DNA from: Stygiolobus caldivivus
GTDB lineage: Archaea > Thermoproteota > Thermoprotei_A > Sulfolobales > Sulfolobaceae
Length of the DNA stretch: 64,000 nucleotides
Direction of reading: 5' to 3'
Assembly (NCBI RefSeq): GCF_019704315.1
Contig: NZ_AP024597.1
Location: 992,001 to 1,056,000, forward strand
This document shows, piece after piece, positions 6,207 to 44,545 of the stretch; the stretch's first letter is position 1, and each line of letters opens with the position of its first letter. A model generated the notes under the pieces. That model worked only from the letters and a program-made list of their open reading frames with translations, was not told the origin of the DNA and ran no database searches. A program made the position numbers and the translations under genes.

Positions 6207-6298
6207 CCTTTAGTGCCATGAAGGACTGACGATGGGTCACCTTAGTTAACGATTTTTTACGCAATTTATCGGGTCTTTTAGTCCTGTGAAGGATTAAC
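6207..6298 (-). CRISPR. decayed distal repeats of array 1
   Basis: Two degenerate repeats (6207-6230 and 6275-6298) precede the first intact repeat at 6341 with spacings of 68 and 66 bp. Both keep the ends CTTT...GGA(C/T)T(A/G)AC. Their centres read ATGAAG and GTGAAG, as in array 5, not ATGAGG as in array 1. Confidence 0.85.
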
Positions 6299-6340: not shown

Positions 6341-9138
6341 CTTTCAATTCCATGAGGGATTAACTCCTCTAATTTTACAAGATCCTTTTCACCGTAAGTG
6401 ACCTTCTTTCAATTCCATGAGGGATTAACAGCCCGACAATGTTCGGGATGCCCGCAACAATAAGAATACTTTCAATTCCATGAGGGATTAACTTAACTTT
6501 CTCCGCTTTCTCTTCTACTTTCAGCCTCACACTGCTTTCAATTCCATGAGGGATTAACGCTCAAACCTGTGGTTTCTGATAGCTGAAATTTTTTGTAACT
6601 TTCAATTCCATGAGGGATTAACTTCAGATTGGAGAATTATGGTAAGTTAAAGAACACCTTAACAACTTTCAATTCCATGAGGGATTAACTGGACATAATA
6701 GGAGTAAGGAGTTATACAAGTGAAGTAGACTTTCAATTCCATGAGGGATTAACTAGCTCACCGATAATACCTACTGCGTCAGCAAACATACCAGCTTTCA
6801 ATTCCATGAGGGATTAACTTGTGTAGAGAATTTGAACGTCATTTCGTAGTAGACACTCCTTTCAATTCCATGAGGGATTAACTTCGTAAGTGTAGAGGTG
6901 ATAAAATAAATGTCAAACTACAGTCTTTCAATTCCATGAGGGATTAACTGGAGCTAACATAGTACTTTTCGTGAAGAGGCTACAGGACTTTCAATTCCAT
7001 GAGGGATTAACGAAAATGTCTTGAGTGACCGCGAAACCGAATTGAGCAAATGACTTTCAATTCCATGAGGGATTAACAGAAAGGTAGCGTTACTACTGCT
7101 TAGCATATTATCATCTTTCAATTCCATGAGGGATTAACCGATTTAATGAAAGACTATCATGACATGTTTGTACAATTGACTTTCAATTCCATGAGGGATT
7201 AACTCGATGTGGACAAAAGGGAGGAGGTGCTACCTTTTTTGAACTTTCAATTCCATGAGGGATTAACTCAAACCCGTCTTCTACCTTTTTAATATGGATT
7301 TTCATTTTCTTTCAATTCCATGAGGGATTAACGTTAAGATACATGTTGGCTAACTGTGTTACAAGTGAGTGTACTTTCAATTCCATGAGGGATTAACTTA
7401 TCAATATCAACATTTACCTGTGCTTTCTCTTCTAACTTTCAATTCCATGAGGGATTAACTTACTCAGCTATACCGCTACGATGAAGCACCTAAAAATCCT
7501 GACTTTCAATTCCATGAGGGATTAACTGGTTTTATGTCTAGTGAAGTTACTATTTCACGTGGTATGTTTCTTTCAATTCCATGAGGGATTAACTAGAGTT
7601 CGCCCTCATGAGTTTGATTATGTTCTCATTGCTCCTTTCAATTCCATGAGGGATTAACGGTAGTTGGTATCGATATACCGAGGTGGGGCGGAAGTCTTTC
7701 AATTCCATGAGGGATTAACGAAATGCATCTCTTTCATGTCATCAGAAAAAGTAGTGTTTACTTTCAATTCCATGAGGGATTAACCAAGTTATACACAAAT
7801 GCTAGCTAATGACGTGGCAGGGCTCTTTCAATTCCATGAGGGATTAACTGAACTCTTCGAACCTCATCTGGACGAAATAGTCAGCCTAATTCTTTCAATT
7901 CCATGAGGGATTAACCTCCCCAGTTTCCTCTTTGATTTTCTTCAGAACTAAGCTACTTTCAATTCCATGAGGGATTAACTGAAGTTACCAAAAAGGGTTA
8001 ATCATGAGGAGGAGGTAGGTCTTTCAATTCCATGAGGGATTAACATTTCAAAAAACAAATTGGTATAATACCTGATGATTATAACTTTCAATTCCATGAG
8101 GGATTAACAGTATACAGCATGCGATTTTGTCAGGAATGAAAGAGAACTTTACTTTCAATTCCATGAGGGATTAACAAAGGTGAAAGGTCCAGGTGAGGCT
8201 GATGATCATAGGAATCTTTCAATTCCATGAGGGATTAACAAACACTTTTCTTTAAACACCTCTCTTCTTTAGCCCTTTCAATTCCATGAGGGATTAACAG
8301 AGTTTCCCGTATACAATTTTATACAACAACATTTCAACTTTCAATTTCATGAGGGATTAACAGCAAGTTATAACTTATCATGGAACATACTCAATGTACA
8401 GCTTTCAATTCCATGAGGGATTAACGGCATACTCGTGCCAACATTAGACCCATGCGACTACGTCAAACTTTCAATTCCATGAGGGATTAACTGAGACTAA
8501 GAGACAGCTAGAAAGCAGGGGGATACAGGGTCTTTCAATTCCATGAGGGATTAACAATTTTGAGGAATTGAAACGGAAATATTTCAACATGAAGGAAAAC
8601 TTTCAATTCCATGAGGGATTAACTATTGACAAAAACGAAGGGCAAGCCTCGTCCTTTAGGGCGCTTTCAATTCCATGAGGGATTAACTGTGAAAACGGAT
8701 ATTGTATTTATACGCTCAATTGGCAAAGCTTTCAATTCCATGAGGGATTAACGTATTTCGTGCTGACTATTAGTAATTCTTCACCTATCCATTCTTTCAA
8801 TTCCATGAGGGATTAACTTATCTGGTAATAGAACGGTGTGCTTTTCTCGTTATAGGAACTTTCAATTCCATGAGGGATTAACAGACTTAAATAGGAGAGA
8901 AGAGTAGAAAAAAAGAGAGGAGCTTTCAATTCCATGAGGGATTAACCGATTTATGTAAACCTTTTTCTCTGTCAAGAGAGGTAATACTTTCAATTCCATG
9001 AGGGATTAACGAGATAACCCACAAATAGGCCCTAAAGTGCAAATACCAATCTTTCAATTCCATGAGGGATTAACTAGGGCCTCCCCAGAACCTCTTTATA
9101 TAATTTTCTCTATACTTTCAATTCCATGAGGGATTAAC
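6341..9138 (-). CRISPR. CRISPR array 1
   Basis: I count 44 repeats of 24 nt and 43 spacers of about 37-45 nt. The repeat starts CTTTCAATTCC, has the centre ATGAGG and ends GATTAAC. One repeat at 8338 has a single change (CAATTTC). The leader is on the right, so the pre-crRNA is read on the minus strand and newest spacers are near 9100. Type I-A by repeat and by neighbouring Cas genes. Confidence 0.97.
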
Positions 9139-13285: not shown

Positions 13286-13411
13286 CTTAACTATCGCGGC
13301 GGGGGAGGGGTGAGCGTAGGGGAGTGTAATAGCCCGAGGCGTTACAGCTCCGCTTACCGTAACGGCCCCTACAGCGTGGACTTTAATAAAGGCGGGAGGA
13401 AAAAGGTTGTC

Positions 13412-13804
13412 ATGGTGGACTTCCTCAGGACTAACGCCAAGCAGTTCCTCGAACAAGCGAAGTTTTCAATGCAAAGGGGGTTTTATAACCTGGTGTTATT
13501 TAACGTCGAACAAAGCGTCCAACTGAACTTAAAATACTTACTGTATTTGTCATCAGGGGACTTCCCTAAGACCCACAGGCTCTCAGACCTTTTCAGGCTT
13601 ATAAAAGCAGTAGATGACCCTTGCGGCGTGTACACTTTTTACGAGGGTAACAAGGACTTCCTCACGGTCATAGAGTTGTCTTATATTTCCAGTAGGTACT
13701 TACCGCAATCGTTCTCAGAGGAAGACGCCGAAAAAGCTTTAAAGTTAGGGGAGGAGTTTGATAAGTTAGTTGAAGGATGCGTGAAGAGTACGAAAAGGTA
13801 CTGA
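13412..13804 (+). CDS. HEPN-domain protein
   Basis: I chose the ATG at 13412 (131 residues); a TATA-like TTTAATAAAG is centred 26 bp upstream. The protein is all-helical, with the HEPN hallmark LFNVEQSVQLNLKYLLYL followed by GDFPKTHRLSDL. HEPN proteins of this type pair with a minimal nucleotidyltransferase (MNT). In characterised pairs HEPN is an RNase or toxin-like subunit and MNT modifies and silences it. The MNT gene follows and overlaps by 28 nt. A second pair of the same order is at 53855-54546. The canonical R-x4-6-H motif is not obvious, so this could be a non-catalytic HEPN. Confidence 0.85.
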   Translation: MVDFLRTNAKQFLEQAKFSMQRGFYNLVLFNVEQSVQLNLKYLLYLSSGDFPKTHRLSDLFRLIKAVDDPCGVYTFYEGNKDFLTVIELSYISSRYLPQSFSEEDAEKALKLGEEFDKLVEGCVKSTKRY

Positions 13805-14130
13805 GGGCGATCTACGAGGAGAGAAAGGAAATACTGGGCAACATAGAGAAGTATTTGAAAGGGGTTAAGGACAGTGTGTTGGAAAAAGACCCCGGGGCGA
13901 AAGTCCTCCTCTTCGGGAGCTTTGTCAGGGGGGACTTCAGGCCGGACAGCGACATAGACGTCCTGATAATATCCGACGAGTTCGGCGACGACCCACACAA
14001 ATACGCTGAACTGGTCAATTACATAAGGGACAGGATAAAGCGGTATTCACTCTTCGAGTTCCACGTAGTCACGAGAAAGACTTACGAGGAGTGGTATAAA
14101 AGGTTTATAGACGTGTATAAAGAAATATGA
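13777..14130 (+). CDS. MNT-type nucleotidyltransferase
   Basis: The protein has 117 residues. The catalytic motif GS-x10-D-x-D is intact: G47-S48, then SDIDVLI with D59 and D61. The N-terminal 45 residues are helical and charged. MNT enzymes transfer AMP or another nucleotide to a partner; in HEPN/MNT pairs the HEPN protein is the target. Start ATG at 13777 overlaps the HEPN gene in another frame, so the two are coupled. Confidence 0.88.
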   Translation: MREEYEKVLRAIYEERKEILGNIEKYLKGVKDSVLEKDPGAKVLLFGSFVRGDFRPDSDIDVLIISDEFGDDPHKYAELVNYIRDRIKRYSLFEFHVVTRKTYEEWYKRFIDVYKEI

Positions 14131-14543: not shown

Positions 14544-14873
14544 CTTTCAATTTCGTTAAAGGCAAAAAGGAGAGGTTAAAGGGAGCAGTCCCGGACGGTG
14601 TCATACCTTTCAGTCCTGTGAGCTTGGGTACCGGGTTTGTCGACGTAAAAGTTAATTTCCCTTTTCCAATTTAGCTGAGGGTTAACTTTGTACTATAGCA
14701 CCGGAGGGTCGGGTTGACGCGACCCGCTTTCGACTCTATAGTGATCTAACAGCAAAAAACGGGAGTGACGTAAGGGTACCCCGTTATTGACTTTCAACCC
14801 TGTGGTAGGTCAACGTCCCTGCAAGACCCCATAACCGCATCGTCGTTTACTTTCAACTCTGTGGCGGACTAAC
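14544..14873 (-). CRISPR. fossil CRISPR array of the live repeat family
   Basis: Six degenerate repeats start at about 14544, 14607, 14663, 14727, 14791 and 14850, with spacings 56-64 bp. The last three are exactly 24 nt: CTTTCGACTCT...TCTAAC, CTTTCAACCCT...GTCAAC and CTTTCAACTCT...GACTAAC. The ends CTTTCRA and YAAC are kept, while the centre and the spacers have drifted to high GC. No leader is attached. It lies between arrays 1 and 2 in their orientation. Confidence 0.85.
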
Positions 14874-15078
14874 CTGAAGTTCCCGTATGGCTTTCCACCG
14901 GTATTACCCTCCCGTGGGTCGTCACCCGTTGAATAGCCGGGTACCCTTAGTCCCGGAGGGGGCCCCTGGAGTTTTGATCAAAAAGGCAAAGTTTTCACGG
15001 GCCCACGTTGACGGGGCGTAAAACGCGGTCCCCCTATGCGGTAGCGGGCGGTAATTGGAAGTAAAACTCGTGTAGGCT
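14874..15078. other. GC-rich non-coding stretch
   Basis: Nothing recognisable is seen apart from its position next to the fossil array. Confidence 0.35.
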
Positions 15079-15423
15079 TCAGAACACCCTCCTTAGCCTG
15101 CGTATATTCCCGTGGCCCACAATTATCTCTATCTCGGTGTGGGGAGGGTAAATGACGTTCACGTTCGCGTACCCGGCCACCTGTTGTTCGACGCCGTTAT
15201 AGTCTATGTCTATGAAGTTTATGATTATGCTCGGTCTCGTCTTGGCTACTGCTGAGCCGTAGAGGAAATGGGCGTAACCGTTCTCTGAAGTTATGGTGAA
15301 CTCTTGGGGCGAGTAGACCTTGACGCGGCCCATGTCGACGGACAGGAAGAAGGTGGTCTTCCTCCCGACCTTTTCGGTCTCGAAATACAAGTCGACCCCG
15401 TCCCGCCTGAGCCCCTCCAACAC
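15079..15423 (-). CDS. small hypothetical protein
   Basis: The open frame extends upstream, but its N-terminal part looks non-coding. A TATA box TTTATAAA at 15463-15470 puts transcription start near 15441, and GTG at 15423 is the first usable start after it (114 residues). The protein is beta-rich (VDLYFETEKVGRKTTFFLSV, IIINFIDIDYNG) and ends in a basic tail GNIRRLRRVF. I do not recognise a family. Start and reality are uncertain. Confidence 0.45.
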   Translation of the reverse strand: MLEGLRRDGVDLYFETEKVGRKTTFFLSVDMGRVKVYSPQEFTITSENGYAHFLYGSAVAKTRPSIIINFIDIDYNGVEQQVAGYANVNVIYPPHTEIEIIVGHGNIRRLRRVF

Positions 15424-16571
15424 GTCCCTAATAACTTGCTCGTCTCTACCTTGGAGCACAAAATTTATAAACACCGAAAAGTTTAAAAATTTTTCGGTCA
15501 GCTTTTTAGCCCTACCCGACGGAGCGGTCGGTAGCGGTGCCCCCGCTAAACAAGGGGGGTCGGTTAAGGGCCCTGACCCGCTCCAGAGCGGGTGCCCCGA
15601 GAGGCTTGGGTGAAAAAAAATTGGATAAATTTTCATCTGAGCACGCAGGGAAATACACACACGGTAGTGCCGCTCACGCCCCTTTACGGGTTTAATACCC
15701 CTCCCCGTTCAGTATAACCTTGTGTGTAAGTGGCAAAACACCGTTGGACGCCTAATTTAATTTAAGCCTTTGCCCCCGTTACCCTCCCCGCCAGCCCTAG
15801 TACTGGCTTTACTCGACGTAGAATTAACAGTTAAAACGGCTTAACGAGAAAGATAGGGGTTGCGACGGCCCGTGACGGCCCTCTCACTACCCGTCATTAC
15901 TGCTCTCAAGGCGATATCACTATCAATTACAAACCCGGTTCTCCGGCACACTCTTGGGCATCTGAATTAAACCCGGTTCGGAGGGCTTGGGGTCTGGAGA
16001 GGGGCGCCCGGATACGAGGCGGTGGCCTAACAATAGGAGGTAGGCAGTAGACCAACGCCGGCTGGAGAGAAGCTATATGTAATAACGTCCCTATAACAAA
16101 AAGAAGGTCGACTAAATCTTTTATAGATAATCTTTTATACGGATAATAATGTAATTAAAACGAGTCCTGATAATATTAAAATTGTTAAAATACGGGAAAA
16201 ATCCTAACCTTAGACTTGTCTCAATCGTTTTACCCGGTGTGTGTCGGGTACACGTCACCATTCCTAGTACGCGTTTATAGGGGGCTGATACTCGTCCCCC
16301 CAGTCGTCACCATAAAGCGTTATTTACATGACTTTTACGGTATAATTTATAAAATCGCCATGTCGTTTTGAAGGCTACCAAGTATTCGAAAGACCTTATA
16401 AATAAATACTGAAGGTACATTTGCTCCGTGCACAAAAACCGCTAGAAACAAGGCCGGAAAAAGGAACTGAAAACGGGTGACTCGCTTATGTCTTGTACCG
16501 GCCTAAAGGGCCCATCTAGGTAACAGAGGGGTGACCGGCCTACGTATTAATCAAGGTACCAGCAGTTTTTT
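15424..16571. other. non-coding stretch between a small gene and array 2
   Basis: No gene is supported. The right part is AT-richer. A 19-bp sequence starting GTACCGGCC (16495-16513) recurs at 44718-44736, beyond the distal end of array 4. Confidence 0.45.
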
Positions 16572-19500
16572 CTTTCAATTCCATTGAGGATTAACGAACA
16601 TGCAGAAGTATTTAGATTCCTCAATGAGGGACTTTACTTTCAATTCCATTGAGGATTAACGTGTGAAATAACGTTACCGATAACAGTTACCGTCTTTAAC
16701 CTTTCAATTCCATTGAGGATTAAGTTTCCGTCTCCAGTTCGCCTTTACTTTCTACGTCTTTTTCTTTCAATTCCATTGAGGATTAACGTGGTTTCAAAAA
16801 CTCTTAACGTTATGCAATTATACATTAATCTTTCAATTCCATTGAGGATTAACCTATTTCTTCATCCGTTAATTTGTCTTTATAATAATCAAACTTTCAA
16901 TTCCATTGAGGATTAACTCGTAGCCTCGAATAATTCGAGAGCCTCGTCTTTGTTTATCTTTCAATTCCATTGAGGATTAACGCAACACTTTGGATATTTG
17001 AATGGACTAGAAATATAGCAATAACTTTCAATTCCATTGAGGATTAACTTCGCTGTTGAGGTCATCTATGGCTTCCTGGACGCATTCCTTTCAATTCCAT
17101 TGAGGATTAACCCCTTCAATAACGCTCCCATTACCTTAGCCTTATCCTCCTTTCAATTCCATTGAGGATTAACTTGAACATTTACGTTAGTTTGTACAGA
17201 GTAAGTGTTAATTATGCTTTCAATTCCATTGAGGATTAACGTAGGGAAATAATTTAGCCTTCCACACCTCTACATTAATCCCACTTTCAATTCCATTGAG
17301 GATTAACGAGTTTAAGACCGAGTTACTGAAGATATTGCCCTCACAGTCCGTCTTTCAATTCCATTGAGGATTAACAGGGAAGAAGTTCCTGAAGTGAATA
17401 TATACCCTGTAAAACGTCTTTCAATTCCATTGAGGATTAACATGAATGCATAGGCGTACCATAAATTTATCAATTTTTCTCCTTTCAATTCCATTGAGGA
17501 TTAACTAGATATATTTCCTGATCTGTAAGGACTCTTCATCTTTTAACTTTCAATTCCATTGAGGATTAACTTCTGAAAGAAGCACTTAGGGTAGCTAAGC
17601 ACAAAGTGTTCTTTCAATTCCATTGAGGATTAACGTACCAGTTTAATGGTGACCCGTCAGATAGTTATTATGAACTTTCAATTCCATTGAGGATTAACAG
17701 ACTGACAAAGTATAAGCAATATTGTATAGCTGTCCATGATCTTTCAATTCCATTGAGGATTAACAATTGGTCAGTGCTTTCATTGTAAGCAAAGCGATAG
17801 AGAATCTTTCAATTCCATTGAGGATTAACATTGTCGAGTGTAGGTTTATGAGATATATTGGAAAACTTGTCTTTCAATTCCATTGAGGATTAACGCCGAG
17901 ATAATAGCGTTATTTGACCCAAGCAACGTTTCGGCTTTCAATTCCATTGAGGATTAACAGTAAAGACCCGATAGGCTGGTTTCTAAAGAAATCGGAACAG
18001 CTTTCAATTCCATTGAGGATTAACGAAATCGCAAAGGCGACTAGATCGCACCCTTCCATGACTTTCAATTCCATTGAGGATTAACATATCGATAATCTAC
18101 TTAGGTTACCTAGCATAAAACTTTCTTTCAATTCCATTGAGGATTAACTTGGAGCAATTATTTAAATTCCTTAAGCCTAACGAATTTGTCTTTCAATTCC
18201 ATTGAGGATTAACAAAGAGCTTGCTACTGCAACTAAAAATTTTGAGATCCAAACCTTTCAATTCCATTGAGGATTAACTCACCCTCCTCAGCCTTATGCT
18301 TATGTCCTCTAGGTTCTTTCAATTCCATTGAGGATTAACAACACGTTAGGTGGAGCCGTATACATAATTGCACCGATATTCTTTCAATTCCATTGAGGAT
18401 TAACCTCTAACCTCCTTCCATGTGCTTATTCCTAAATACCATTTCTTTCAATTCCATTGAGGATTAACAGTATCTTAGGTTCACTTAGGGCATATACGGC
18501 AAGTAATGCTTTCAATTCCATTGAGGATTAACTTGGACATGCAGATCCGTGTTGGTGACAAAATCGTGTCCTTTCAATTCCATTGAGGATTAACAACACT
18601 CCTTTCACTTTTTCAGGAGGTATCTGTTTTTTCTTCTTTCAATTCCATTGAGGATTAACCCTATGCCCATTATTGCACCGATTATTAACATAGTATAATC
18701 TTTCAATTCCATTGAGGATTAACAGTGTTATTCAACACGTAATCCGGTAAATCTAATTCGCTTTCAATTCCATTGAGGATTAACTTCACAGACGGGACTA
18801 ACATAAATGTTAGAAGCTTAGAGCACTTTCAATTCCATTGAGGATTAACGTCGATATCAAATATCATGAAACCCTATGAAAGCTATAAGTCATGGCTGAC
18901 TTTCAATTCCATTGAGGATTAACAAACTGGTTTATGCATAGTTATAATTGGGGATAAGAAAAACTTTCAATTCCATTGAGGATTAACTTGGTTCAGGATT
19001 CTTCTGGTATAATATTTGTAAAGCGTTCCTTTCAATTCCATTGAGGATTAACCCTTGCAGCAGTTTCTCTGATACCCTTAGCCGCAACCCTGCTTTCAAT
19101 TCCATTGAGGATTAACTTAATATTGAAAAATTGCAAAATGAAGAATATAAAATCCTTTCAATTCCATTGAGGATTAACTAAGTGCTTCCTTATGACCGGA
19201 ATTTCGGCGATGTTCAAGTCTTTCAATTCCATTGAGGATTAACGAATTGTAAAGCTAGGTGCGGTCGTCGTTGTGGTATTGGTGATGCTTTCAATTCCAT
19301 TGAGGATTAACCAATTTCTAAGAAGTTTGTTGTCTAGAGCTCTATCAAATTTCTTTCAATTCCATTGAGGATTAACTCAGTTATAGATATGAATTTACCG
19401 ACTAGAGAAGAATTGACTTTCAATTCCATTGAGGATTAACGAAAGGCATAGGTCCCTGTAGGCGACTTAGACCATAATTGTCTTTCAATTCCATTGAGGA

Positions 19501-21690
19501 TTAACTAAACTGTTTGCCGTCTTTGGTCGTCCCCGTTATTTCCTTCTTTCAATTCCATTGAGGATTAACACAAACGTGTGTAAGCGAGTATGTGGATGAG
19601 GATATGCACTTTCAATTCCATTGAGGATTAACATGGTACTATTTAAGTACCGTATTGGAACCTTGACGGTACTATACTTTCAATTCCATTGAGGATTAAC
19701 AATGATAGAGCTTTAGTGGAAAAGCTTGTAAAAGAGGACCAGCTTTCAATTCCATTGAGGATTAACACACTACAACAACGGTATATTCCACAACTTTGAT
19801 TACCACTTTCAATTCCATTGAGGATTAACATTTTCTTACATTCCCTTCTTCATATTCTATATCTGGTAACTTTCAATTCCATTGAGGATTAACCAAGGAG
19901 GGTGGTGCGTTAATTACCATAGGAGGGAAAGACTATACTTTCAATTCCATTGAGGATTAACACGATCATGAACTTTCCTTCTTTCTCGTCAAAAACAAGA
20001 TACTTTCAATTCCATTGAGGATTAACATATGATATAGAAAAATTATATATGAGGTTTCTGAATGCTTTCAATTCCATTGAGGATTAACACGAAATACCGG
20101 CGATGGCATACGGTTACGTCACACCGTCTATCTTTCAATTCCATTGAGGATTAACAAACAAGAGTGTTCTACTTATAGGTTATAGTGAAGTAGTACTTTC
20201 AATTCCATTGAGGATTAACCTGCCCCATGTCGTTATAGTAGTACAGTTTGAACGTGTGCACTTTCAATTCCATTGAGGATTAACTATAGGAAAGCTGTTA
20301 AATGCTTTAACTACTTGAAAGGTTTCTTTCAATTCCATTGAGGATTAACACGGGGTGGTGGGTAATGACGGTGTGTGAGGCGGGTTAGTCTTTCAATTCC
20401 ATTGAGGATTAACATTTCTCAAGTATTAAAAGACTCTGTAAACTCGTACGTAGCTTTCAATTCCATTGAGGATTAACGTAGTCGGTGCAGTAACAGTTTC
20501 GATCGTTAGCGGTGTTCTTTCAATTCCATTGAGGATTAACGGAGGGAGTGACGATATACACTCCGTCACCGAATCAGGTCTTTCAATTCCATTGAGGATT
20601 AACCCCTTCTGCCTTCCATAGTTGGTCGAAGGCGGAGAGGGTCTTTCAATTCCATTGAGGATTAACGAAGTTAAACGCGAAAATGATAGCGTCACAGTAT
20701 GTGAGAAACTTTCAATTCCATTGAGGATTAACAGATCTAGCTGGTGATGTATTATATAAATTAGGAGTATGGCTTTCAATTCCATTGAGGATTAACAAGA
20801 AGCCGTAATTGAGAGGGCATTAAAGGCACTGGAAAACTTTCAATTCCATTGAGGATTAACTGATTCTGGGACATGTTCTATTTTCATCAAAAGATCAAGA
20901 CTTTCAATTCCATTGAGGATTAACGAGTAAGGAAGGAAGGGAAGGCTCTTAATCAGTTCATGAGCTTTCAATTCCATTGAGGATTAACTTTTCGCCAAAA
21001 CATGTAACAATAGACAGACAAAAACTTACTTTCAATTCCATTGAGGATTAACTTCTACAGGATTTACACTCCTTCTACACCCGCTGTAGACTTTCAATTC
21101 CATTGAGGATTAACTCCCCGCAAGCTATTGGGTAAAGTTCCTTAGCCGTAATTACCTTTCAATTCCATTGAGGATTAACCTTTTATCGAAACAATTTCGG
21201 GGAGGAGTGTAGTGAAGTACTTTCAATTCCATTGAGGATTAACTTTTTTCTAAGGTAGTGGGAAGATGTTTGAGTTTGTCCTCTTTCAATTCCATTGAGG
21301 ATTAACGATGGCTAAAGACAAAGTGATCTTGAGGGCGAAAATCGTCTTTCAATTCCATTGAGGATTAACCCTTACGTTTGCCCGCTGTGTTTGATACCCT
21401 TTTCATCGTCAGCTTTCAATTCCATTGAGGATTAACTTCGTAGCGTTAGCATTCGCTAGATATGCAGCACTTCTTGCTTTCAATTCCATTGAGGATTAAC
21501 TGCCAAAGAAGTATTGATTTTTTTCCCTTTTTAAGTGATGCTTTCAATTCCATTGAGGATTAACATGTATTGGTTATTCATGATTTCGGTGATAGGTAGT
21601 TTCTTTCAATTCCATTGAGGATTAACATAGTGAAGTTGATGATGAAGCACCTACTGATGCTGATTGCTTTCAATTCCATTGAGGATTAAC
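16572..21690 (-). CRISPR. CRISPR array 2
   Basis: I count about 80 repeats of 24 nt. The repeat starts CTTTCAATTCC, has the centre ATTGAG and ends GATTAAC; the third repeat ends GATTAAG. The period is about 64.5 bp. The leader is on the right, so it is read on the minus strand, away from the adaptation cas genes. Frames reported inside it are read-through of the repeat (LILNGIE). Confidence 0.97.
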
Positions 21691-31007: not shown

Positions 31008-37221
<6,214 letters not shown>

Positions 37222-39750: not shown

Positions 39751-42700
39751 GTTAATCCCTCATGGAATTGAAAGAAGCATATAGAGATGTTTAAGAAAGA
39801 GGAGTAAGGTCTGAAGTTAATCCCTCATGGAATTGAAAGTATTCTCAGTGTCATAATACCCATACTCCTTACAGTATTCTAGTTAATCCCTCATGGAATT
39901 GAAAGCCCACACTTACGATTTATTGACAAAGGTACAAAAGGGTCTGTTAATCCCTCATGGAATTGAAAGGAGATAGTGCAAAGCGTCTTAGAAATACGTT
40001 GCCCAGGTTAATCCCTCATGGAATTGAAAGAATCCCTGCGTCGTCGAAGATTATGAGCGGGATCCTATAGTGTTAATCCCTCATGGAATTGAAAGAAAGT
40101 TCTGTGTAACCTCTTGTTTCAACACTCCCCCTAGTTAATCCCTCATGGAATTGAAAGTCTTTTAGTTTTCCTAACTTTTAGCAAGAGAATTAGGAGAAAG
40201 TTAATCCCTCATGGAATTGAAAGTTCAATTGAACATAAAGAAGGGCTCGGGCCGGGACTTGAAGTTAATCCCTCATGGAATTGAAAGTTTATCGATATAC
40301 CTCTCCTTTTTCTTCACGTTCTTAGCCTTGTTAATCCCTCATGGAATTGAAAGTATATGGTGAGAGAGATGAAAAAGCTGAGTTTGGTCAAGTTAATCCC
40401 TCATGGAATTGAAAGCTACAGCGATACTGTAGCCGTAAAAGAAGGCCGTAACAGAGCCGTTAATCCCTCATGGAATTGAAAGTAAGGAGCTACTTCTGCC
40501 CAGCTAATTACTGGAATATAAGTTAATCCCTCATGGAATTGAAAGGTAATACATGTTCTGCTGGAATTAACACTTTCCTGTGGATGGTTAATCCCTCATG
40601 GAATTGAAAGCACTTGCCTTGACAACCGATGATTTCCATTAGGACGTTGGTTAATCCCTCATGGAATTGAAAGACTGGTTTAAATGTAAGTATAGGCTGA
40701 TTTTTATTATTTCTCGTTAATCCCTCATGGAATTGAAAGACAAGTGTACCTGACCGGCATTGCAGTCACCTCTTTGACGTTAATCCCTCATGGAATTGAA
40801 AGCATGATAGACTACATCAGCAGTGTATTCGAAGCCTCTGAGTTAATCCCTCATGGAATTGAAAGTAAAGATTATCTCTTTGAGTGTTTGTTTATTGTCC
40901 TCGCTAGTTAATCCCTCATGGAATTGAAAGGAATAAATTAAAAGAAATACAAAAATTAAAAACGCGTACTCTTGTTAATCCCTCATGGAATTGAAAGATT
41001 TGTCTGCCATAAACTGTTCATAATGTTCCACAATGTTAATCCCTCATGGAATTGAAAGTACATTGGGTCAAGTATGTACGCTAACGGAGTCCCTACCTGT
41101 TAATCCCTCATGGAATTGAAAGTAATTCTATACTGGTGACTTTAGAGGTTATTTCTATTATCCGTTAATCCCTCATGGAATTGAAAGTTCTCGAAGAGTA
41201 AAAGGAGTGTACCGTAGTCGTAGTAAAGTTAATCCCTCATGGAATTGAAAGCACCTTATCCGATATCTATGAACTAGTCCTAGCACTCAGGTTAATCCCT
41301 CATGGAATTGAAAGTTTTGCTACGATGTAGATAATTAGTGCTACTATCCACGCCCAGTTAATCCCTCATGGAATTGAAAGTACCAGGTTTTTGCTAGGCC
41401 GTCTAACTACTATAACGCCACGTTAATCCCTCATGGAATTGAAAGTCACAATAGTAATAATAAGGAATAACACAATCATCCATTCTCCGTTAATCCCTCA
41501 TGGAATTGAAAGTACAGCTCTTCTGTTTTAGACAATGGAGTTTATTGTGTTAATCCCTCATGGAATTGAAAGCTTTAGATGACTGTGGAATTAGATTTAA
41601 GACCGCTTTAAGCTCTTGTTAATCCCTCATGGAATTGAAAGAAATAGGAAATACCCCTACATAATGCCAATAGCCTGGAACTTTCGTTAATCCCTCATGG
41701 AATTGAAAGATACCGATGATCATATCAACATCACCCTGACTCATGATATGTTAATCCCTCATGGAATTGAAAGTAACTGCCGATATCTCTGCTACAATCT
41801 CGTCATCTTGAAGGTTAATCCCTCATGGAATTGAAAGTCCGATGCCCGAATTTCCTTTGGTAATTTATGCTGTTCTAGTTAATCCCTCATGGAATTGAAA
41901 GGGAAATTTGTGAGAAGATGGGGTTAAGAAATGACTGACATGTTAATCCCTCATGGAATTGAAAGCAGAAGAGTCTTTTCTCCAAACCCGGGCATACTCA
42001 TACTTAAGTTAATCCCTCATGGAATTGAAAGCTTTTTCCCTTATCTTTACGTACAAATCTTTTGGGAGATTTGTGTTAATCCCTCATGGAATTGAAAGTT
42101 GTATAATGCATCCTGGATAGGAGGGAAGTACCCAGAAGTTAATCCCTCATGGAATTGAAAGCTATGACCGATTGCGTTGACTAAGTTATCAGTCCTTATC
42201 TCGTGTTAATCCCTCATGGAATTGAAAGGAACTCATTGAAAGAGGGCGAAGTAGAGATGTAACCGTTAAGTTAATCCCTCATGGAATTGAAAGTCAGATA
42301 AAGCGTTAAATAAAACGTTCTCAAAAATACGTGTTAATCCCTCATGGAATTGAAAGCTTCCCTATAACACGCTTTAGGTAGTAAGACCAGTTCTTCCAGT
42401 TAATCCCTCATGGAATTGAAAGCTCGTCCGCCGGTGCCTCGCCCCTCATGAACTTGTAGTATGCGTTAATCCCTCATGGAATTGAAAGAGGGAACTATGA
42501 GGTGAGATGAAATGAAAGAGGTTAAGCTATGTTAATCCCTCATGGAATTGAAAGATAGTATTTGTGCTGTTCATGATACTGTCGTACTCGAAGAGTTAAT
42601 CCCTCATGGAATTGAAAGCATTTTCCGCCCACCCTAGCAAGATACTCTTTAAACGAGTTAATCCCTCATGGAATTGAAAGTACATGTACGAGTTTTGCAG

Positions 42701-44545
42701 AGTAGAATTGTATACGAGTTAATCCCTCATGGAATTGAAAGTCTTGAGACATAAACCATGCCCTTTTTCGCATATGCCAAAGTTAATCCCTCATGGAATT
42801 GAAAGGAAAGTTTGGTAGTCAGAGACCCTAAATATCTGGGTAAGTTAATCCCTCATGGAATTGAAAGAGGCTACATTTCGAAAGAAAAATCGGAACTAGC
42901 AAAAGCGAGTTAATCCCTCATGGAATTGAAAGCTCTTTTCGTAAAGGTGGGTGTGTTACACAGGAGGGGTTAATCCCTCATGGAATTGAAAGCTCCTCCC
43001 GCGGTTTTCCTAAAATTGTCCTGAGTTTCACGTTAATCCCTCATGGAATTGAAAGTCTTCCCTACCTTGATTACCCCGCTATCACTAAGTGTTACGTTAA
43101 TCCCTCATGGAATTGAAAGGTGTACTCGTTTTATGTAGCTGAAGTTAAAGCTTATGCGAAGTTAATCCCTCATGGAATTGAAAGACTTGAGCTAAATATA
43201 TGTATGTTAATGCATAAAGTAATAGGGTTAATCCCTCATGGAATTGAAAGACTTGAGCTAAATATATGTATGTTAATGCATAAAGTAATAGGGTTAATCC
43301 CTCATGGAATTGAAAGAATATTAGAAAACTGAACGTTACAAGTCAGATAATCTCACGTTAATCCCTCATGGAATTGAAAGAAAAATGCTAGACCAGCTAT
43401 AGCACCGCCCATTGCAGCGTTAATCCCTCATGGAATTGAAAGTTGGAAAGACAAAGAGAGGATTAAACAAGACATTGAAATAATGTTAATCCCTCATGGA
43501 ATTGAAAGTAGTCCTTGATGCGTTGGACTTCTCTCGTAGCAAGCCTGTAGTTAATCCCTCATGGAATTGAAAGTTGCTATAAAGCATCGACCTCGGCGTA
43601 CCCATTACCAATTCGCGTTAATCCCTCATGGAATTGAAAGATACTCAAACACAAATTTGTATCTTCTCTTATTTGTCCCCGTGTTAATCCCTCATGGAAT
43701 TGAAAGCTAGTAATAGTATGATTAAAGATCTCAATACTATTGAATAGTTAATCCCTCATGGAATTGAAAGATATCTTTGCACAAACTGGAAATTTCAGTG
43801 ATGAAGTTTATGTTAATCCCTCATGGAATTGAAAGTTATGTGGGTGAGTAATAAATTTAATAAGTATATCGCTAAGTTAATCCCTCATGGAATTGAAAGT
43901 CATCCCAGCTCTCTCTAGGTGTATATAACCACTCTGGTATGTTAATCCCTCATGGAATTGAAAGTCAAACTCCTCAAAGGTGAGCTGAATGGCGGGGAAG
44001 AGGAGTTAATCCCTCATGGAATTGAAAGGACATTCATATAAGCGTGTTCATATAGCCACTTAGCCTTCTCTGTTAATCCCTCATGGAATTGAAAGCATGA
44101 TAACAAGGACGTGGAACGCGGGAACCATAGAAATAAGTTAATCCCTCATGGAATTGAAAGTTTACTGTTCTTGCCGAAATAATAATCTATAACACCAGCG
44201 TTAATCCCTCATGGAATTGAAAGACAAGTAAATCCCAACTGTTAGTGAACACTATAATGTCTACGTTAATCCCTCATGGAATTGAAAGTTGATATCTTAA
44301 ATACTAAGTTATGTACTCTGTACTGTTTTGCGTTAATCCCTCATGGAATTGAAAGTGTCATAAACGGTATGGGTAGAGAGGACTTAGGTTCGTTTGTTAA
44401 TCCCTCATGGAATTGAAAGACACATTGCGTTATATTGTACTATTTTTATATTTGTATATATGTTAATCCTTCCCGGAATTGAAAGTAACTGTACAGTGCG
44501 CGGAATATGTGTGGTGTCTGTTATGTTAACCCTTAGAATTTAAAG
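39751..44545 (+). CRISPR. CRISPR array 4
   Basis: I count about 73 intact repeats (39751-44419), starting GTTAATCC and ending GGAATTGAAAG, with the same repeat as array 1 (ATGAGG centre on the other strand). Two degenerate repeats follow: 44462-44485 (centre GGGAAG on the other strand) and 44525-44545 (21 nt). The leader is on the left. One spacer starting ACTTGAGC is tandemly duplicated near 43185 and 43251. Confidence 0.97.

Follow-up and report, generated by a model that had tools for sequence, protein, structure and literature searches.

What is usually seen of array decay is no more than a mutated repeat or two at an array end, and units as diverged as those described here tend to be discarded by CRISPR finders. 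Repeats furthest from the leader gather substitutions and indels (PMC8047081, PMC2886076, PMC4869251), and programs have difficulty with degenerate arrays (PMC4869251). Locus F of Saccharolobus (Sulfolobus) solfataricus is leaderless and inactive in spacer acquisition, and its 88 spacers are frozen, strains agreeing in both spacer content and spacer sequence (PMC4390879). For Haloquadratum walsbyi DSM 16790, a vestigial CRISPR locus is reported by a source that cites other work for it, and a related strain has a homologous locus (PMC3404096).

Six degenerate, evenly spaced repeats of Stygiolobus caldivivus (positions 14544-14873, + strand) are the remnant of an old, dead CRISPR array. All positions refer to the window, i.e. 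the whole analysed stretch of 64,000 nucleotides (bases 992001-1056000 of the 2.96 Mb single-contig genome), unless stated otherwise. Like locus F, the remnant is a Sulfolobales array without a leader but, unlike locus F (PMC4390879), it retains six units only, which are about 28% diverged and carry indels. It also resembles the decay known from trailer ends, which occurs in this genome in the arrays at 6341, 39751, 62379 and 78621; trailer-end decay, however, usually affects a single repeat or a few that still adjoin a live array, whereas the six units are all degenerate and stand alone. Like the H. walsbyi locus (PMC3404096), it is a remnant array in an archaeon, but no related strain with a homologous locus was found for it. 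Leaderless inactive arrays (PMC4390879) and degenerate terminal repeats (PMC8047081, PMC2886076) were thus already known; new are a well-supported, strongly decayed example and a possible record of repeat-type replacement.

Genomic setting and repeat units

Judging by its cas genes (Csa2/DevR, Cas_Csa4, Cas3 pieces, Cas4, Csa3 and Cas11a) and by repeats of 24 nt, the locus is of the Sulfolobales type I-A. Live arrays are located at 6341-9138 and 16572-21690 on the + strand, and at 31008-36934, 39751-44485 and 62379-64403 on the - strand, the latter continuing beyond the window end; a sixth lies outside the window (window position 78621-82819). The repeat CTTTCAATTCCATnnnGGATTAAC is common to all six live arrays of the genome, their leaders begin with TGAATGTTTTTATACT or near-identical letters, their repeats start about 65 nt apart and their spacers measure 40-41 nt. 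The remnant sits between the first two of these arrays, in the same orientation as both.

Directly to its left are genes for a HEPN protein and a nucleotidyltransferase, forming a toxin-antitoxin-like pair (13310-14130). The nucleotidyltransferase is 79% identical to a homologue in another genome (G004), where no repeats adjoin it. On the right, an ORF at 15079-15660, without Pfam or PADLOC match, is confined to this genome among the 21 searched, and has a second copy (40% identical) at genome position 1,460,946. A less decayed copy, as envisaged in the first-pass annotation, did not emerge: no syntenic locus was found among the related genomes searched, and the 1-kb locus occurred in none of them other than this one.

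The units are 24-26 nt long, with start-to-start distances of 63, 54, 66, 64 and 59 nt, and all lie on the + strand. Unit 1 (14544..14567; CTTTCAATTTCGTTAAAGGCAAAA) differs from the live consensus by 7 changes in 21 scored columns; unit 2 (14607..14631; CTTTCAGTCCTGTGAGCTTGGGTAC), with an indel in its right half, is the weakest of the six; and unit 3 (14661..14686; CTTTTCCAATTTAGCTGAGGGTTAAC) carries a 2-nt insertion. Units 4 (14727..14750; CTTTCGACTCTATAGTGATCTAAC), 5 (14791..14814; CTTTCAACCCTGTGGTAGGTCAAC) and 6 (14850..14873; CTTTCAACTCTGTGGCGGACTAAC), the last on the would-be leader side, are all best fitted by a repeat type of related genera, and correspond to the three units of exactly 24 nt noted in the first-pass annotation. 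The CTTTC end noted at the same time occurs in 6/6 units, provided that unit 3 is read with its insertion (CTTT[TC]CAAT), and the -AAC end in four of the six (units 3-6), being absent from units 1 and 2.

Direct repeats of one family recur at regular spacing, as in CRISPR arrays. The near-identity of repeats typical of such arrays is lacking (mean pairwise identity 53%); since this is expected of a decayed array, the locus is named a remnant rather than a live array. The five spacer remnants (14568..14849, + strand) measure 39, 29, 40, 40 and 35 nt, so that 4/5 fall in the 35-43 nt range, and no two are alike.

Evidence for a decayed array

Scanning the window with four live consensus variants, allowing up to 9 mismatches, returned five consecutive same-strand matches over 14544-14850. 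When unit scores at 54-76 nt spacing were summed into a chain score, the remnant reached 71.7 bits against the live consensuses, compared to maxima of 21.2 ± 2.9 bits (highest 30.7) for permuted-column consensuses (n = 60; 464 kb, both strands). The next best place in the 464 kb scored 22 bits, extensions of the remnant chain being set aside. With related-genus repeat types added, the score rose to 88.3 bits, against a null of 26.7 ± 5.3 bits (maximum 45.3; n = 20; 464 kb, both strands). A template-free test of the six 24-mers gave 192 pairwise identities versus 93.9 ± 9.5 (z = 10.4), and none of 62,178 slid placements equalled this self-similarity. The comparison of the units and live consensuses with shuffled sequence, by which the array reading was to be judged, thus placed the score far outside the permuted, reversed and slid controls. 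Chance is thereby refuted, and a non-CRISPR repeat, such as protein-binding iterons or a gene fragment, is barely conceivable: apart from the weakness of unit 2 nothing speaks for it, the window gave no Rfam match, and the units overlap no known gene family.

The kind of change agrees with decay. Across the six units, 29 transitions and 4 transversions separate the remnant from the live consensus when the variable columns 14-16 are left out (nominal P 1e-10, counting changes shared between units as independent), compared to 33% transitions at chance-matching sites with a similar identity count. Repeats with 1-7 changes and the same spectrum occur at old ends of live arrays, the degenerate end repeats (6207, 6275, and the ends at 39751, 62379 and 78621) totalling 25 transitions and 5 transversions. 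Two of these (6207..6298, + strand, starting at 6207 and 6275) are found at the old end of the live array 6341-9138, where this decay has gone only part of the way. They read CCTTTAGTGCCATGAAGGACTGAC and CTTTTAGTCCTGTGAAGGATTAAC, and the second has four changes in common with unit 2. Because chain score, self-similarity and transition excess all lead to a decayed CRISPR array, this interpretation, already put forward in the first-pass annotation, is strongly supported.

Substitutions affect about 28% of the scored sites in the remnant, with similar per-site rates from AT to GC (20/79) and from GC to AT (11/39), rates that would settle at about 47% GC at equilibrium. Their distribution over the repeat is uneven, as columns 1-5 (CTTTC) were changed in 0/30 cells, with 33 changes elsewhere (P 9e-6, uncorrected). 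This constancy is unexpected under plain neutral decay and not easily explained by it, although it is partly a consequence of changes that units have in common and of the way in which the units were recognized.

In crRNA, the CTTTC end becomes GAAAG in the 5' handle, and the unchanged columns would suit a divergent array whose transcripts are still made and processed, selection preserving this end. Such an array seems highly improbable, as two units have indels, each unit is different, two spacers are shortened (29 and 35 nt), and neither a leader nor spacer targets were found; moreover, end repeats of live arrays do vary in columns 1-5 (10/45 cells).

Concerning the spacer remnants, no match was detected among 372 live spacers or in phage and plasmid records, nor in IMG/VR using exact 22-23-mers from three of them. 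The viral or plasmid origin sought for the interspaced segments was therefore not recovered, and exact matches are not expected of decayed spacers. The remnants have 52% GC, compared to 38-40% in live spacers, so that the reported shift to high GC is a real difference, part of which may reflect regional composition: non-coding DNA has 47-52% GC in the window but 36% in long non-coding stretches of a 400-kb genome sample, itself at 39.5% GC overall. The GC content of the spacer remnants thus approaches the local composition. Coding and non-coding DNA around the arrays (9139-62000, arrays left out) is at about 50% GC, making the whole CRISPR region compositionally odd.

Repeat types, leader and flanks

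Screening 31 genomes of the family for a T in repeat column 11 identified live arrays in other genera, with CTTTCAACTCTATAGGAGATTAAC in one genome (G033) and CTTTCAATTCTATAGTAGATTAAC in two others (G035 and G037). The related-genus type that fits units 4-6, CTTTCAACTCTATAGNAGATTAAC, is live in other Sulfolobaceae genera. This genome lacks a live array of that type, and the T11 pattern matched it at one place only, which by its sequence must be unit 6. Units 4-6 share with the repeats of those three genomes C8 (as in G033), T11 and G15, which units 1-3 do not possess as a set.

Allowing for shared changes, the related-genus type is the better fit for units 4-6, by 7.7 bits, while the live type of this genome leads by 9.0 bits for units 1-3. 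In simulations, only 0-1 of 150 triples of the live type were as foreign as units 4-6, and 0/150 triples of the other type were as native as units 1-3, for a 3|3 split that was chosen after the data had been seen and with unit 2 only half aligned. Models over all six units separated neither repeat type nor direction. Given the post-inspection split and these undecided models, a mixed ancestry is a moderate claim, namely that the array was non-uniform before its death, with units 1-3 derived from the type live here and units 4-6 from the related-genus type. Assignment of all units to the live repeat family, as first proposed, is accordingly favoured for units 1-3 and disfavoured for units 4-6.

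A change of repeat inside one array is not exotic, as a live array of G033 has CTTTCAACTCCATAGG at its old end and CTTTCAACTCTATAGG nearer the leader. The change in that array (L097, 1241-10872) is stepwise: C11 gives way to T11 once a block with mixed repeats has been passed. We tentatively consider that the remnant records a repeat-type change of this kind, in which the newer half had switched to the type of other genera, later lost from the genome, though the odds are somewhat against it. The order of changes was also considered as an indicator of growth polarity and was uninformative (rank 97/720).

No leader is recognizable in the right flank, where it would be expected (14874..15078). 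A by-eye likeness to live leaders (TGAAG..., CCCGTTGAATAGCCGGG, GGAGTTTTGATCAAAAAG, TAATTGGAAGTAA) had suggested a decayed one. In that flank nhmmer found no match to the leaders, and anchored alignment to them gave shuffling p values of 0.005-0.08 with an unremarkable rank among other anchors, the flank as leader start being no better than many starting points nearby. As a positive control, live leaders that had been given 25-40% mutations and 2-6% indels were still picked up, with z values of 7 or more, compared to about 3 at best for the flank. The leader has thus either disappeared or suffered much more damage than the repeats, in agreement with the first-pass annotation, and a decayed leader is rejected by the control except for one with large deletions. 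On neither side of the six did any additional unit rise above chance.

A right edge without leader is also what would be expected if the units were the oldest end of the live array 16572-21690, severed when DNA around the ORF 15079-15660 arrived. Remnant and array share their orientation, unit 3 best fits the TGA repeat type of that array, and a precedent exists in a lone degenerate repeat (window position 77426) 1.2 kb from the old end of the 78621 array. Conversely, units 4-6, which are nearest to the array, least resemble its repeat, and the interval 14874-16571 has no convincing degenerate unit (best 13.1 bits, inside the shuffled range). We regard such a severance as unlikely, though not negligibly so. 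The roughly 1.2 kb between the 77426 repeat and the 78621 array (genome 1069426-1070621, L022) contains, by eye, a RelE-like toxin ORF; toxin-antitoxin DNA may have entered at array ends there (77426-78621).

Probable decay in place and its significance

Very probably, the locus is what is left, now inert, of a Sulfolobales type I-A-like array in which loss of the leader was followed by decay in place. Once leaderless, the array would have gained no spacers and was probably no longer transcribed, so that substitutions and small indels could have piled up in repeats and spacers alike. Based on the indels in two units, the partly shortened spacers, the missing leader and the lack of spacer matches, the remnant most likely has no function now.

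The first-pass annotation had also taken the locus as direct evidence that whole arrays decay in place. This broader claim is not supported, as it relies on a single remnant that may be a fragment, having only six units and lacking a leader; a scan of about 29% of the genome (864 kb, made up of the window, its flanks over 400 kb and a sample of 400 kb spread over the genome) revealed no further fossil array. What is general here is that live arrays decay at their old ends.

A statistically demonstrable remnant yields a measured decay spectrum, with transitions outnumbering transversions about seven to one and per-site rates from AT to GC close to those from GC to AT. The template-chaining test could be applied to many genomes, where it would address how often arrays die in place as opposed to being deleted. 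The mixed types suggest that remnants may preserve a record of lost CRISPR lineages and, if the repeat-type change is true, fossil arrays could date the replacement of adaptation modules.
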